Part shown: positions 4,462 to 11,994 of the stretch, in pieces | Layout: each line of letters opens with the position of its first letter | Position numbering within the stretch: position 1 is the first letter of the stretch | Source: Ruminococcus sp. | GTDB lineage: Bacteria; Bacillota; Clostridia; Oscillospirales; Ruminococcaceae | DNA: 41,400 bases | Assembly (NCBI GenBank): GCA_017534835.1 | Contig: JAFXVT010000053.1 | Coordinates: 1-41,400, forward strand | Direction of reading: 5' to 3' | The notes under the pieces: model-generated | Databases searched by the model: none | Told to the model about the DNA's origin: nothing | What the model saw: only the letters and a program-made list of their open reading frames with translations | Position numbers and translations under genes: made by a program

Positions 4462-4484
4462 CCGCATAAGAGGGAGTGAACAAA

Positions 4485-4823
4485 ATGTCTGATCTCAAAC
4501 TGACAAATGAAAAGATGCGCACCTTCGACGGTCACGAAAAGGTGGGCGTATTCAAAGCCGGCGAAAAGCTCACCGACTTCGGCGAGAAGCAGAATTCCGC
4601 GAATGAAGTGCTCGCCGCGAACATTAATGACCTCATCGTGAGGGTGTGTGCCCTTGAGGACAAACAGCTCCAGAATGCCGAGGTCATGCGCAAGCTCGCA
4701 GAGGAGCTCGCCGCCTTCAAGAAGGAGCTCGACCGCCTGAGGCTGTCCGACAAGCTCAACACAAATGCAGTCGAGCGTCTCAACAGGGCAGTGAGCCTCG
4801 CACAGGGCGATACAGACAGCTGA
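4485..4823 (+). CDS. coiled-coil hypothetical protein, 112 aa
   Basis: ATG 4485 with AGGGAG at 4471-4476 is preferred over an in-frame GTG at 4476, which overlaps that ribosome site. The sequence is soluble. From about residue 35 a long heptad-rich helix runs through LEDKQLQNAEVMRKLAEEL and FKKELDRLRL to the end, a clear coiled coil. An N-terminal patch (KMRTFDGHEKVGVFKAGEKL) looks like a small structured cap. It is the last gene of the polysaccharide operon and precedes the ATP synthase promoter. No function is recognised; oligomerisation or scaffolding is the most that can be inferred. Confidence 0.7.
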   Translation: MSDLKLTNEKMRTFDGHEKVGVFKAGEKLTDFGEKQNSANEVLAANINDLIVRVCALEDKQLQNAEVMRKLAEELAAFKKELDRLRLSDKLNTNAVERLNRAVSLAQGDTDS

Positions 4824-4997: not shown

Positions 4998-5024
4998 ATT
5001 TAAAGGATGAAGGAAGGTGCTATA

Positions 5025-5759
5025 ATGGCAGAAGAGCTGATAGAAGAGCTTGAAAATAAGGTCGCCTTTACTATACCGATATTCGGAGGTATCCCCATCG
5101 CCGATTCCTGCGTTGTTACGTGGATAATAATGGCTGTACTGGTGCTGCTGTCCATAATACTCACGAGGAACCTCAAAAGAGTGCCGACAGGCGTGCAATG
5201 CCTGCTCGAATCGTTCATAAGTATGCTCAACAAGATGTTCACGGAAGCACTCGGAGAGGGCGGAAAGAAATACGTCCCCATACTTGAGACGTTCATACTC
5301 TACATAGGTGTATCGAATATCGTCGGTATCTTCGGCTTCGTGCCGCCGACAAAAGACGTAAACGTAACTGCTGCGCTCGCAGGACTTGCTATCATTCTCG
5401 TTCAGGTCGCATTCATACTCAAGAAGGGACCGCTGAACTGGCTGAAGAGCTTCATCAATCCCCTGAATGTGCTCGACCTGATAACAAGACCGCTGTCGCT
5501 GTGTATGCGACTTTTCGGTAACGTTCTCGCAGCACACATCGTTATGGAGCTCATCAAGATAGCGATAAGGACATATGTCAAGGTCCCCGCGATAGGCGTT
5601 CCGCTCATCGCAAGCGCTTATTTCGACATTTTCGACGGAATTCTTCAGGCATACGTATTCTCGTTCCTCACCTCGCTCTACCTCGCTGAAGCTATCGAGG
5701 AAGAAGAGGGAGAAGGAAAAAGATCAAGAAAACGCAAGAAAGTTCATGGAGGTAAATAA
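5025..5759 (+). CDS. atpB: F-type ATP synthase subunit a, 244 aa
   Basis: ATG 5025 is preferred over ATG 5007 because AGGAAGG (5011-5017) is spaced correctly for it. The protein is the membrane stator half-channel of Fo. The segment RPLSLCMRLFGNVLAAH contains the essential arginine in the conserved LCMRLFGN context. Several hydrophobic helices precede it (around residues 32-52, 90-110 and 117-135), and an amphipathic helix near the end leads to an unusual Glu-rich then Lys/Arg-rich tail (EEEEGEGKRSRKRKK), longer and more charged than in most homologues. It is followed after 2 bases by the first c-subunit gene. No atpI is seen upstream. Confidence 0.95.
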   Translation: MAEELIEELENKVAFTIPIFGGIPIADSCVVTWIIMAVLVLLSIILTRNLKRVPTGVQCLLESFISMLNKMFTEALGEGGKKYVPILETFILYIGVSNIVGIFGFVPPTKDVNVTAALAGLAIILVQVAFILKKGPLNWLKSFINPLNVLDLITRPLSLCMRLFGNVLAAHIVMELIKIAIRTYVKVPAIGVPLIASAYFDIFDGILQAYVFSFLTSLYLAEAIEEEEGEGKRSRKRKKVHGGK

Positions 5760-5761
5760 AT

Positions 5762-5989
5762 ATGGGAGTTATCGCATTAGGTGCTGCTGTTGCCGTTCTC
5801 ACAGGTATCGGCGCAGGTATCGGTATCGGTATCGCGACCGCTAAGGCTACAGAATCTATCGCGCGTCAGCCCGAGGCAAAGGGCGATATAAGAACATCGC
5901 TCATCATCGGATGTGCCCTTGCTGAGGCTACCGCTGTTTACGGCTTCGTTATAGCGCTCCTCATCATAATCATGCTCGGCAGCAAATAA
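5762..5989 (+). CDS. atpE: F-type ATP synthase subunit c, copy 1, 75 aa
   Basis: This is a two-helix hairpin proteolipid. Helix 1 carries the GIGAGIGIGIA glycine ladder, the polar loop is ARQPEAKGD, and the ion-carrying glutamate lies in GCALAEATAVYGF. Compared with the sodium-binding c subunit of Ilyobacter, the Gln ligand of helix 1 is Ile here and the Ser after the key Glu is Ala, which argues for proton coupling, although Thr and Tyr of the site are kept. A second gene encoding the same protein with one substitution (Val3 to Ile) follows immediately. Confidence 0.95.
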   Translation: MGVIALGAAVAVLTGIGAGIGIGIATAKATESIARQPEAKGDIRTSLIIGCALAEATAVYGFVIALLIIIMLGSK

Positions 5990-6013: not shown

Positions 6014-6241
6014 ATGGGAATCATCGCATTAGGCGCTGCTGTTGCCGTTCTTACGGGCATCGGCGCAGGTATAGGAATAGGTATCGCGACCGCTAAGGCT
6101 ACTGAGTCTATCGCACGTCAGCCCGAGGCAAAGGGCGATATTAGAACATCGCTCATCATCGGATGTGCCCTTGCTGAGGCTACCGCTGTTTACGGCTTCG
6201 TTATAGCGCTCCTTATTATAATCATGCTCGGCAGCAAGTGA
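6014..6241 (+). CDS. atpE: F-type ATP synthase subunit c, copy 2, 75 aa
   Basis: The product differs from copy 1 only at residue 3 (Ile for Val). The 5' half differs at more than ten synonymous sites, while a central-3' block coding for RTSLIIGCALAEATAVYGF is identical base for base. That pattern fits an old duplication kept uniform by selection plus patchy gene conversion, not a very recent copy. It has its own AGGAGGT-like site (ACGGAGGTAT). Both copies probably contribute to one c-ring; making two messages per transcript is a simple way to reach the high c stoichiometry. Confidence 0.95.
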   Translation: MGIIALGAAVAVLTGIGAGIGIGIATAKATESIARQPEAKGDIRTSLIIGCALAEATAVYGFVIALLIIIMLGSK

Positions 6242-6277: not shown

Positions 6278-6766
6278 ATGCTTAAATTTGAATTCTGGAG
6301 CATTTTTGAGGCAGTTGCCAATATCATCATACTGTTCATTCTGCTCAGGATATTCCTCTTCAAGCCCATAAACAAGATGATGAACGAAAGGACACAGTCC
6401 ATTCAGAAGGACATCGACGATGCCGAAAAGGCAAGGCAGGAGGCAGAAGCACTCCGCCAGCAGTATTCCGATACCATCAGCGAGGCTAAGGAAGAGGCGA
6501 GCCGGATCATTATGAAGGCTCACGATGATGCAGAGACCGAAAGATCAAGCATCATACAGAAGTCCCACGAGGAGGCTGACGAGATCGTCAGCGCCGCAAG
6601 CGAAACTATCGAGAATGAGCGCAGACGTGTGCTCCAGCAGGCACAGTCACAGATAGCAGACCTCGCTATCGAAGCCGCTTCCAAGATAGTCGGTGCGAAC
6701 CTCGATGACGATAAGAACAGGAAGCTTGTCGACGAGTTCCTTTCCGAGGAGGGTGACAAGCAATGA
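6278..6766 (+). CDS. atpF: F-type ATP synthase subunit b, 162 aa
   Basis: An AAGGAGGA site precedes ATG 6278. One N-terminal transmembrane helix (about 8-28, [21 protein letters not shown]) is followed by a long charged helix rich in Glu, Lys and Ala, the dimeric stator stalk. The end ([20 protein letters not shown]) matches the delta-binding tip of b subunits. Its stop overlaps the start of the fused delta-alpha gene (ATGA at 6763-6766), so b and delta-alpha are coupled. Length is normal for a stand-alone b; it is not fused to delta as in mycobacteria. Confidence 0.95.
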
Positions 6767-8787
6767 GAGATAACGGAAAAGAGCTCGTAAAGGAGCTCGT
6801 CCGCCGCAACATATCCCGCGAGGATATAATCACGGCAAAAAACATCCTCGATACCTGTCCCGACGTCGCTGATACGCTGTCTAATCCCCTCGTAACTTAC
6901 GATGAGAAGCACAGCATAATCAGACAGATATTCCCCGAAACGCTCGAACGCTTTATGGCTTCTGCCGTAAGAGAGGGCGCGGTCGGCGACCTCGGCGAGA
7001 TCTTCGGTGAATATGAGGAGATACTCCTCGAAAAGCAGGGAGCTATCAGAGCTGTAGTGCGCTATGTTACGCCGCTTACTGAGTCTCAGCAGGCTGACCT
7101 GCGCAAATTCATAATGGAACGCTTCGTCAAGGACGACGTTGACATCGAATACAGACATGACCCCGACATCATCGGCGGTTTCATCCTCAATGCAGGCGAT
7201 GTCGAGTACGACCGCAGCTACCGCACGAGCCTCCGCTCAATGCGCGAGCTTATGCAGTCGAAGGCGGCAGAGGTCGCCGAAAGCGGCAAGGAGAAGCTCT
7301 CCTCCGGCGACATCATCTCTGTCCTCAAGACAGAGGTAAAGGACTTCACTGTCAAGTCCGGAGCTACCGAAACAGGCTATGTTACGCGCCTCGGCGACGG
7401 TATTGCCTCAGTTTACGGTATGAGCGGGGTTATGTACGGCGAGCTCGTTGAGTTCGAGACCGGTATCCGCGGCATCGTACAGAACCTTGAAGAAAAATCA
7501 GTAGGCGTCGTACTCCTCGGCGACGACAGCGGTCTCACTGAGGGCTCTTCCGTTGTCCGCACAGGAAAGCGCGCAGGCATCGGCGTGAGCGATGAGCTCC
7601 TCGGACGTGTCGTTGACGCGCTCGGTGCTCCCATCGACGGTCTCGGACCTGTCCGCGCAGACGATTACTTCCCGATAGAGCGCGAGGCTCCCGGCGTTAT
7701 CGAGCGTAAGCCCGTAAGTGTGCCGCTCCAGACCGGTATCCTCGCTATCGACTCGATGTTCCCGATAGGAAGAGGTCAGCGTGAGCTCATCATCGGCGAC
7801 AGACAGACCGGCAAGACCTCTATCGCTATAGATACTATCATAAACCAGAAGGGCAAGGACGTTATCTGCGTCTATGTCGCTATCGGACAGAAGGCATCGA
7901 CCGTCGCACAGGTAGTAAATACCCTCAAGAAGTTCGGCGCTATGCCCTATACAGTCGTTGTATGCGCTTCTGCGAGCGACCCTGCTCCCTTCCAGTACAT
8001 ATCGCCGTATTCAGGTACGGCTATTGCCGAATACTTTATGTCAAAGGGCAAGGACGTCCTCATAGTATATGATGACCTCTCAAAGCACGCCGTTGCATAC
8101 CGTGCGATGTCGCTGCTGCTCCACCGTCCGCCCGGACGTGAGGCTTACCCCGGCGACGTATTCTATCTCCATTCGAGACTTCTCGAACGCTCGAGCCGCC
8201 TCGATGACGAGCACGGCGGAGGCTCACTCACGGCTCTCCCCGTTATCGAGACGCTCGCAGGCGATATTTCGGCATATATCCCGACGAATGTCATCTCTAT
8301 CACAGACGGACAGATATTCCTCGAGAGCGAGCTCTTCAACTCGGGTCAGCGTCCGGCTGTAAACTACGGACTCTCCGTTTCGCGTGTCGGCGGTGCGGCT
8401 CAGACCAAGGCGATGAAGAAGGCTGCCGGAAATCTGCGTATCGACCTTGCTCAGTTCAAGGAAATGGAGATATTCACACAGTTCTCATCAGAGCTCGACC
8501 AGTCCACCACAGAGCTGCTCGAGCACGGACGTATGCTCACAGAGCTGCTCAAACAGCCGCTCTATAACCCTATGCCGCACTATAAGCAGGTAATACTGCT
8601 CTACGCAGCTCAGCACAGGCTCTTCGAGGGTATCCCTCTCAATGAGCTCAGGGAGTATATCAGCGACCTTATGACGTATATCGAATCATACGGTCAGGAC
8701 ATCATCTCTGAGATAGAGGAGAAGAAGGTCCTCGACGAGGAGCTCGGCGAGCGTATCGAGCGCATCGTCACGGCATTTGAGGAGTAA
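6763..8787 (+). CDS. fused F-type ATP synthase delta-alpha subunit, 674 aa
   Basis: A single open frame encodes both subunits. Residues 1 to about 163 match delta/[21 protein letters not shown] in the N-domain, [16 protein letters not shown], then [20 protein letters not shown] in the C-domain, with the first helix of typical delta shortened. A Lys/Glu/Ala-rich linker (about 164-181) joins residues 182-674, a complete alpha: [11 protein letters not shown] at its N-terminus, Walker A GDRQTGKT (345-352), [12 protein letters not shown], and the arginine finger R541 in [12 protein letters not shown]. No stop, start with ribosome site, or frame break is visible at the junction. Delta couples the b stalk to F1, and alpha forms half of the hexamer. 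Normal F1 holds three alpha but one delta, so a strict fusion implies three delta copies, proteolytic cutting, or a changed stator. Confidence 0.92.
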
Positions 8788-8798
8788 GGGGTGAGTCT

Positions 8799-9710
8799 AT
8801 GCCCAACATAAGAGAGATACGTGAAAGGATAGCGAGCATACAGCAGATACTCAAGATAACGAATGCGATGTATCTCATATCCTCTTCAAAGCTCAAAAAG
8901 GCAAGAGCTGCCCTCGACCTCACCGAGCCATATTTCTATAAGCTTCAGGAGACTATCGAGAGCGTGCTCGAGCACACTCCGCATACACGCCAGCTCTTCT
9001 TCGACAGACGTTCGGATATACCCGATGAAAAGCGTAAAAAGGGCTATATCATCATCACAGGCGACAAGGGGCTCTGCGGAAGCTATAACCACAATATCCT
9101 CAAATACGCCGAGCAGGCACTTGACGAGGCTCCTGACCTCAACAACTGCTACCTGTTCGTTATGGGACAGGTCGGACGTATGTACTTCCAGCGGCGTATG
9201 AATTCCGGGAACACAGCCTCTGTAGACGGCGAATTCCTCTATACTACGCAGAATCCGACTATCCACCGCGCAAAGGAGATAGCCGAGCTCGTCATTGAAA
9301 AATTCGAGAACCACGAGCTTGATGAGGTGTATGTGCTGTATACGGATATGATAAATTCAAATTTGCAGGAGACGCGCACCGTCCGCCTTCTCCCGTTCGA
9401 GAGACGCCACTTCGGAAAGGCTCCCGACGGAACGATGAAAAAGCTGCCCAAGGCTTCATTTATGCCCTCGCCCGAGGAGGTAATGGAGTATCTCATACCC
9501 AACTATGCAAAGGGCATCATCTACGGCGCGATGGTCGAGGCGTTCTGCTGTGAGCAGCACTCGCGTATGACCGCTATGGACGCCGCTACGAACAGCGCAA
9601 AGGATATGATAAAGGACCTTTCGCTGATGTACAACCGCGCGCGTCAGGCTGCGATAACACAGGAGATAACCGAGGTCTGCGGCGGCGCTGCAAGCCTTAA
9701 CGAAAAATAA
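8799..9710 (+). CDS. atpG: F-type ATP synthase subunit gamma, 303 aa
   Basis: The gene starts 11 bases after the delta-alpha stop, with a GGGGTG site. The N-terminal helix MPNIREIRERIASIQQILKI and the C-terminal helix (MTAMDAATNSAKDMIKDLSL ... QAAITQEITEVCGGAASL) form the conserved antiparallel coiled coil of the rotor shaft. The middle holds ITGDKGLCGSYN, the usual Rossmann-like region. Length is slightly above the usual 285-290 residues. It rotates inside the alpha3beta3 ring and contacts the c-ring. It ends just before a hairpin (9715-9736), which separates it from an inserted unrelated gene. Confidence 0.95.
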   Translation: MPNIREIRERIASIQQILKITNAMYLISSSKLKKARAALDLTEPYFYKLQETIESVLEHTPHTRQLFFDRRSDIPDEKRKKGYIIITGDKGLCGSYNHNILKYAEQALDEAPDLNNCYLFVMGQVGRMYFQRRMNSGNTASVDGEFLYTTQNPTIHRAKEIAELVIEKFENHELDEVYVLYTDMINSNLQETRTVRLLPFERRHFGKAPDGTMKKLPKASFMPSPEEVMEYLIPNYAKGIIYGAMVEAFCCEQHSRMTAMDAATNSAKDMIKDLSLMYNRARQAAITQEITEVCGGAASLNEK

Positions 9711-9761: not shown

Positions 9762-10154
9762 ATGAGCAAAATCGGCGATTTTCTGAGAGAAACAGGTGTA
9801 TTCTTCCTCGCAACTGCTGACGGGAAACAGCCAAAGCTCCGTCCGCTCGGAGCATTCCTCGAAAAGGACGGCAAGATAATTTTCGGCGTCGGCGACTTCA
9901 AGGACGTCTACAAGCAGCTCAAAGCTGACCCGCTCTGCGAGATAGCTGCCTGCAAAAAGGACGGTCACTGGCTGAGATACACAGGAAAGGCTGTCTTCGA
10001 GACAGACCCTTCATATGCCGAGGAAATGATAAAGGCTTCCGGTCTTGAGGCTATCTACAATGAAACGACCGGAAACAAGCTAATGACATTCCACCTTGAG
10101 GAAGCAGCAGCTGTTGACATCGCTGTTATGGGAGAGGGCGAAAGCCTCCTCTGA
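9762..10154 (+). CDS. pyridoxamine 5'-phosphate oxidase-family (flavin split-barrel) protein, 130 aa
   Basis: AAGGAGGA precedes ATG 9762. The opening pattern, FLRETGVFFLATADGKQPKL then RPLGAFLEKDGKIIFGV, is that of the PNPOx-like FMN-binding split barrel, with the substrate/FMN strand read as a short beta hairpin and DVYKQLKADPLCEIAA following. Members of this group are small FMN- or F420-binding proteins of unclear substrate, often annotated as NimA/NimC-like. It is soluble with no signal peptide. It sits in frame order between gamma and beta of the ATP synthase, a place normally empty. Whether it binds FMN or acts in redox control of the enzyme is unknown; position implies co-expression only. 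Confidence 0.8.
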   Translation: MSKIGDFLRETGVFFLATADGKQPKLRPLGAFLEKDGKIIFGVGDFKDVYKQLKADPLCEIAACKKDGHWLRYTGKAVFETDPSYAEEMIKASGLEAIYNETTGNKLMTFHLEEAAAVDIAVMGEGESLL

Positions 10155-11579
<1,425 letters not shown>

Positions 11580-11583
11580 TCCT

Positions 11584-11994
11584 ATGGCTAAGACATTCCA
11601 CCTCGAGATAATCGCTACGGACGGCATTTTCTTCCAGGGCGAGACCGAGCACCTCGTCATCACCGCGATAGACGGGCTCCTCGGTGTGCTCCCCGGACAC
11701 GAGCCGCTTGTAACGGCACTCCCGACCGGCGAGCTTAAATATATGATAGACGGCGAATGGCACTATGCTGCCATTTCCGAGGGATTCATACAGATAATGC
11801 CTGACAGGGCGATACTGCTCGCGGACGCCTGCGGTCCTCCCGAGGAGATAGCTATGAGGCTCGCGGACGAGGAGCGGATACGCTCCGAAGAGGTAGCGCG
11901 TCAGAAGCAGAGTATCCGCGAATACTACGAGACACAGGCTAACCTCAACCGCACTATCCGCCGCCTGAAGGAATCACAGAAGCATTTCAAATAA
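11584..11994 (+). CDS. atpC: F-type ATP synthase subunit epsilon, 136 aa
   Basis: ATG 11584 starts 4 bases after the beta stop, and its ribosome site (GGAGAG) lies inside the end of atpD. The N-terminal beta-sandwich shows FHLEIIATDGIFFQGETEHL and GLLGVLPGHEPLVTAL, both typical of epsilon. A C-terminal helical hairpin (about 88-136, ADEERIRSEEVARQKQSI and on) is present, so an inhibitory extended conformation is possible. It is the last gene of the operon. No clear intrinsic terminator follows before the secDF promoter. Confidence 0.95.
   Translation: MAKTFHLEIIATDGIFFQGETEHLVITAIDGLLGVLPGHEPLVTALPTGELKYMIDGEWHYAAISEGFIQIMPDRAILLADACGPPEEIAMRLADEERIRSEEVARQKQSIREYYETQANLNRTIRRLKESQKHFK

Follow-up and report, generated by a model that had tools for sequence, protein, structure and literature searches.

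A full-length fusion of ATP synthase subunits delta and alpha in Ruminococcus and its relation to fusions lacking the delta N-terminal domain

Introduction

The stator of an F-type ATP synthase is a textbook constant, with one peripheral stalk formed by a dimer of subunit b (b2) and one subunit a per enzyme, the c-ring alone setting the H+/ATP ratio. Each F1 contains three alpha subunits. In a 41,400-nucleotide stretch of DNA from Ruminococcus sp. (GenBank assembly GCA_017534835.1, contig JAFXVT010000053.1, positions 1 to 41,400; hereafter the window), subunits delta and alpha are encoded in a single frame, which raises the question of how many stalks an enzyme built from such chains would carry. 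The first-pass annotation of this DNA took delta-alpha fusions to be unreported, a view outdated by the work of Ueno et al. 2025 (PMC12229609).

In that study, the N-terminal domain (NTD) of delta was removed from Bacillus PS3 FoF1 and the delta C-terminal domain (CTD) was fused to alpha (PMC12229609). Cryo-EM of the engineered enzyme revealed particles with 0, 1, 2 and 3 stalks in proportions of 15, 51, 26 and 8%, each stalk brought an a subunit, and H+/ATP increased from 3.0 to 5.8. In the interpretation of Ueno et al., it is the position of the NTD on the threefold axis that restricts the ordinary enzyme to one stalk; they asked whether nature breaks this rule, and pointed to likely natural NTD-less fusions (Acidaminococcus fermentans, UniProt G4Q3K6 and A0A1I2C5T3). 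The passages of that paper drawn on here make no mention of a full-length fusion, its spread or repeated origin, and none was found in searches of the open-licence PMC literature.

Results

The fusion gene of the window is one open reading frame that starts with ATG, lacks internal stops and encodes a 674-aa chain of 74.4 kDa, in which the delta NTD, the delta CTD, a short linker and a complete alpha follow one another (Table 1). The OSCP/delta family (PF00213) matched residues 20–163 with 89.0 bits, above its gathering score of 22.3, from profile position 24 onwards. ATP-synt_ab_N, ATP-synt_ab (277.1 bits) and ATP-synt_ab_C covered residues 203–268, 325–540 and 547–672, respectively, and the F-type alpha model TIGR00962 reached 758.9 bits (cut-off 484.45) over residues 180–673; NCBI family models name the protein plain atpA. 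An AlphaFold model based on an alignment of 32 sequences, of which 27 were full fusions and 5 were CTD-only forms, predicted six NTD helices (residues 3–14, 19–31, 33–40, 46–56, 59–70 and 74–91) and the CTD elements E94–101, H107–121, E125–132, E140–144, E147–150 and H153–173. Since its mean pLDDT was 68, with the delta part mostly at 71–86 and large stretches of the alpha core below 50, only the delta part and the junction were relied on. The open frame, the Pfam matches and the model bear out the initial claim that delta and alpha form one polypeptide, delta being joined to the alpha N-terminus in one encoded chain.

Table 1. Coordinates of the atp operon and of the parts of the fusion gene, numbered from the first position of the window
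Feature	Position	Strand	Evidence
atpB, Fo subunit a	5007..5759	+	Pfam ATP-synt_A 143.4 bits
atpE copy 1, Fo subunit c	5762..5989	+	Pfam ATP-synt_C 69.9 bits
atpE copy 2, Fo subunit c	6014..6241	+	Pfam ATP-synt_C 70 bits
atpF, peripheral-stalk subunit b	6278..6766	+	Pfam ATP-synt_B 90.4 bits
delta-alpha fusion gene	6763..8787	+	ORF, Pfam, AlphaFold, ribosome-site check
delta N-terminal six-helix domain (NTD), residues 1–93	6763..7041	+	AlphaFold helices, OSCP match
delta C-terminal (b-binding) domain (CTD), residues 94–173	7042..7281	+	AlphaFold
linker, residues 174–180 in model	7282..7302	+	no ribosome site; varies within genus
alpha N-terminal helix, residues 181–198	7303..7356	+	AlphaFold; constrained across genus
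alpha body: beta-barrel, nucleotide-binding and C-terminal domains	7357..8784	+	Pfam, TIGR00962
atpG, gamma	8799..9710	+	Pfam ATP-synt 308.4 bits
PNPOx-like gene between gamma and beta, outside the synthase	9762..10154	+	PNPOx_N 40.2 bits
atpD, beta	10182..11579	+	Pfam ATP-synt_ab 254.3 bits
atpC, epsilon	11584..11994	+	Pfam ATP-synt_DE_N 74.8 bits

The gene lies within a complete atp operon (a, c, c, b, delta-alpha, gamma, PNPOx-like, beta, epsilon), and its start overlaps the atpF stop (ATGA). A separate delta gene elsewhere, which would have undermined the first-pass reading, was not found: in a contig set that is 99.86% complete, the sole OSCP match is the fusion gene itself. This gene also holds the only F-type alpha of the genome, which has one a gene (the sole PF00119 match), one b gene and two c genes. 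Two weaker alpha matches on contig C10, in frames of 462 and 601 aa, resemble V/A-type subunits in size. The tandem c genes are identical at 211 of 228 bases, each preceded by a ribosome site, and c genes are also in tandem in three relatives' loci (L066, L070 and L072). The PNPOx-like gene, a small relative of pyridoxamine-phosphate oxidase genes, was not found above 20 bits in the 26 other loci compared. Upstream of atpB, positions 4476–4823 encode a small coiled-coil protein whose LIP-1 match (22.9 bits) falls under the Pfam cut-off of 34.1.

Among 100 Ruminococcus genomes searched, 95 had a delta match, and the fused frame was present in 91 of these; the remaining four had a separate delta only, and six genomes had both forms. 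This conservation rules out a sequencing or assembly artefact, and no stop or frameshift, the other flaw considered by the first-pass annotation, is present in the linker. Three of the 91 frames are shorter: that of G325 (577 aa) breaks far within alpha, away from the linker, the G328 match starts at contig base 2, and the G353 frame has 420 aa.

An encoded fusion could still yield an F1 of ordinary alpha with a few delta-alpha chains if the chain were cut or if alpha were also initiated internally. Across the genus, conservation is lowest in the linker (dN/dS 0.32 in a 38-locus set), as fits an accessible loop, and in-frame ATGs do occur in it at 7240 and 7252. However, whereas a Shine-Dalgarno-like purine-rich stretch precedes eight of the nine operon gene starts examined (atpB being the exception), no ribosome site was found before either ATG, so the first-pass claim on this point holds. 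In the linker stretch of 65 full-fusion loci, 10 had no in-frame ATG, GTG or TTG, 54 had a start codon without a ribosome-site match, and one (L069) combined a start codon with a weak match; three copies of the window (L001, L002 and L151) were dropped from this count, as they were from the residue counts and the distance-ratio and c-subunit comparisons below. Internal initiation of alpha therefore appears unlikely. Cleavage, one of the options listed initially, is likewise disfavoured: in the relatives compared the linker varies in both length and sequence and shows no conserved cleavage motif, and relatives retaining only the CTD, to which cutting would bring no gain, stay fused. We consider a cut or internally started alpha improbable.

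Relatives carry otherwise complete atp operons in three states: separate delta and alpha genes; full-length fusions, such as the window protein, with CTD and alpha in one frame and the NTD present; and CTD-only fusions, from which the NTD is gone. The best 80 of 587 relatives' loci, a sample biased towards the query and classed by a profile test, comprised 26 full-length fusions, 30 CTD-only fusions (one of which, L138, starts at a contig end without upstream sequence) and 24 separate pairs. Besides Ruminococcus, the full-length form is found among Lachnospiraceae, for example in Agathobacter ruminis, Pseudobutyrivibrio xylanivorans and Oribacterium parvum; species with the CTD-only form include Butyrivibrio hungatei, Shuttleworthella satelles and Absicoccus porci. 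A class-wide draw revealed an open junction frame in at least 37 of 391 genomes (9 full-length and 28 CTD-only), distributed over at least 17 families, with G632 added on inspection. A draw of 398 genomes from the phylum contributed at least nine further fused genomes from other classes, with frames of CTD-only size (604–659 aa); in a tenth (G966) the frame ends early. All five of these nine that were inspected were CTD-only, in operons ordered a-c-b-alpha-gamma-beta-epsilon. The same order was observed in 20 of 20 fused loci of one inspected set (L091, which starts inside the operon, lacks a) and in six of six CTD-only loci inspected (L212–L217, L216 being cut at the locus end). In one of the latter (L212:4821-6740, from G632), a 640-aa frame, the delta CTD and alpha are separated by a long additional segment.

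No NTD was found in other ORFs of the CTD-only loci (the 30 above and L212–L217) with an NTD profile built from full fusions, which a very divergent NTD could escape. Moreover, 18 of the 28 CTD-only genomes of the class-wide draw, including the single-contig genomes G416, G464, G539 and G667, lack any other OSCP match, which indicates that, with the CTD fused to alpha, the NTD is no longer needed. The other ten have a separate delta as well. In the five of these ten that were inspected (loci L182, L183, L186 and L187, with L183 cut at one end) this delta belongs to a second atp operon, as it does in a genome with a full-length fusion (L184 and L185), so some of these bacteria carry an ordinary F-type synthase alongside a fused one. 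Such pairs of operons are present in several Lachnospiraceae and other genomes. The motif GPGxG[EQ]G with E[ST]T, which we take to mark Na+-type c subunits, fits 35 of 59 separate loci scored but none of the 61 full-fusion or the 35 CTD-only loci scored, a suggestive comparison that is confounded by descent and locus sampling and is given no weight below; a further 5 separate, 3 full-fusion and 20 CTD-only loci were unmatched by the first c-subunit pattern.

Selection acts unevenly along the fused chain. In the Ruminococcus fusions, the NTD had a dN/dS of 0.18–0.21, compared with about 0.07 in the CTD and about 0.04 in the alpha core. A degenerate N-terminal domain, which the first-pass annotation named as part of a possible refutation, does not match these data: the comparison and the model indicate an NTD that is divergent in its first helix, yet under purifying selection (dN/dS about 0.2) and predicted to fold. 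The helix-1 Tyr of the NTD is present in 95% of separate deltas, 3% of Ruminococcus fusions and 100% of other full fusions, and the Arg at residue 73 of the window protein in 65%, 0% and 4%, respectively. In one comparison, the three copies of the window were again dropped, and separate loci with fewer than 640 joined residues were left out and 65 kept.

Distances scaled to the alpha body were compared at matched alpha divergence, as description rather than as tests, since the pairs share ancestry and are not independent; L044 was dropped. The CTD/alpha ratio was 1.39–1.82 in Ruminococcus fusions, 2.30–3.31 in other fused groups and 3.00–4.31 in separate groups with at least six pairs, while one separate group with three pairs in the 0.15–0.25 bin, at 2.64, overlaps the other fused groups. 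The CTD thus seems to be held more tightly when fused, strongly in Ruminococcus and with a modest shift in the other fused groups. The NTD/alpha ratio did not rise with fusion. The alpha N-terminal helix is the delta-binding element of ordinary enzymes; its ratio was 2.04–6.13 in other fused groups, where it changes more freely, versus 1.26–1.80 in the two large separate groups, and at 1.25–1.79 this helix is not freer in the Ruminococcus fusions.

The origin of the fusions was examined in trees of the alpha body only, the delta part having been removed, with 124 rows in FastTree and 76 of these, hand-picked, in an IQ-TREE quick search followed by the AU test. Both trees required 15 state changes. 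On the quick-search tree, and with groups defined by the trait itself, the AU test rejected a single clade of all full-length fusions (p 6.5e-5), of all CTD-only forms (p 1.6e-60) and of all fused forms (p 1.2e-64). The trees therefore indicate that the fused forms are not one clade and that fusion arose repeatedly, although fission may have occurred instead on single branches. CTD-only rows nest within groups of full-length fusions (for instance L106 and L128, which lie next to L132), a pattern in keeping with fusion having preceded the loss of the NTD. In separate-gene loci such as L074 and L076, delta and alpha share a frame and are one or two codons apart, a layout from which fusion needs few steps. 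This layout and the repeated occurrence of fusion would suit a neutral joining, in which adjacent in-frame genes lost a stop and the change was later fixed with the enzyme working as before; the repeated loss of the NTD and the altered constraint on the CTD nevertheless exceed mere joining, and we regard that explanation as highly improbable.

Among known systems, the closest to the window protein is the engineered Bacillus PS3 enzyme (PDB 9jc1), which likewise carries the delta CTD on the alpha N-terminus via a short linker. The top three PDB chains for the window model, and also for an Absicoccus porci model, were those of 9jc1, in Foldseek and VIA rows that are dominated by alpha and barely probe residues before about 175. 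Of 54 PDB sequences matched, 9jc1 alone spanned the junction, and a junction profile aligned to it over positions 8–123 of 123 (E 7.8e-21). The A1 profile was built from 37 of 50 junction pieces. By sequence and model, the CTD-only relatives match the construct of Ueno et al. closely, and they resemble the natural NTD-less fusions of that report in having delta and alpha in one chain within a complete operon (PMC12229609). The window protein, in contrast, keeps the NTD that 9jc1 lacks, and by the published description its whole delta sets it apart from those natural fusions; the full-length form can be regarded as a variant of the fusion kind first described in 2025. Furthermore, it was in the engineered enzyme that the multi-stalk state was measured.

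Canonical atpH and atpA (E. coli, Bacillus PS3) share domains, gene order and neighbours with the window, but they encode two proteins, with one delta per F1. In the mycobacterial b-delta fusion, delta is also joined to another synthase subunit, which is however the single-copy b, leaving one delta per F1, while the delta of the window is carried by the three-copy alpha (PMC8617483). The b subunit of the window is a separate 162-aa ORF. N-ATPases also lack a separate delta gene (PMC5706428), but their operon order and subunits are unlike those of the window, and the N-ATPase alpha model TIGR03324 scored 619.1 bits, below its cut-off of 750.5.

Discussion

Three alphas per F1, the fusion and the short linker together imply that the crown of F1 would carry three tethered CTDs, each beside its own alpha N-terminal helix. 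The statement of three deltas per F1 in the first-pass annotation thus follows from the alpha stoichiometry, provided that the chain stays whole. Each CTD would be a candidate b2-binding site, and every b2 would bring an a subunit; by analogy with the enzyme of Ueno et al., the synthase could recruit peripheral stalks and a subunits beyond the usual one of each, which would raise the number of H+ per ATP and support function at low proton-motive force. The retained NTDs, whose canonical signature is partly lost, have probably given up their usual exclusive capping of the threefold axis, and the outright deletion of the NTD in relatives may have the same reason.

We assign a probability of about 0.5 to the reading that the window encodes a multi-stalk enzyme, with three altered NTDs making room for each other. 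Each alpha would then bring its own stalk-binding site, and part or all of the enzymes would have more than one stalk. The fused frame in 91 of 95 genomes and the absence of any other delta in the window's own genome favour this reading, and the tight constraint on the CTD together with the repeated loss of the NTD leads us to lean towards it. Of the options listed by the first-pass annotation, an altered stator is accordingly the favoured one, the CTD being tighter when fused and the NTD missing in many relatives.

The conserved, foldable NTD leans instead towards an enzyme with one stalk and two spare deltas, in which one NTD would sit on the axis and one CTD on b2, the others being idle or packed on the crown, and in which fusion would mainly secure delta to F1 or fix delta dosage. 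Retention of an NTD with a predicted fold, under purifying selection at a dN/dS of about 0.2, agrees with such an enzyme and counts against several stalks, as do the single a and b genes beside two c genes, since a raised gene dosage is seen for neither a nor b. According to Ueno et al., the stalks are limited to one by the NTD, and even in their engineered enzyme only 8% of the particles had three (PMC12229609). Nevertheless, a single stalk leaves unexplained why many fused lineages lost the NTD and why the CTD became tighter when every copy would be only one-third used. In the CTD-only form, moreover, the three sites are equal, and its engineered counterpart takes extra stalks (PMC12229609). 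We therefore view the one-stalk enzyme as a serious possibility, at rather less than even odds.

The engineered enzyme of Ueno et al. demonstrates that, in the laboratory, fusing delta to alpha can overturn the one-stalk rule (PMC12229609). The present survey adds many natural fusions, several of them from named cultured species (Butyrivibrio hungatei, Pseudobutyrivibrio xylanivorans, Agathobacter ruminis, Oribacterium parvum, Shuttleworthella satelles and Absicoccus porci). Full-length and CTD-only forms differ by exactly the domain held to limit the stalks and so provide natural controls, which makes the multi-stalk consequence that we infer a directly testable question. On a broader and more tentative view, synthases with two or three stalks and an equal number of a subunits might be common in anaerobic Bacillota through repeated fusion, Ruminococcus having the full-length version, in which three complete deltas would top one F1, with H+/ATP ratios above any natural measurement.

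A different arrangement was observed in one of 32 genomes of its family (G643, contig C84), where a separate 270-aa delta (L211:3744-4553) upstream of an ordinary alpha has one NTD and tandem CTDs (residues 108–181 and 180–254), possibly another route to two stalk-binding sites.
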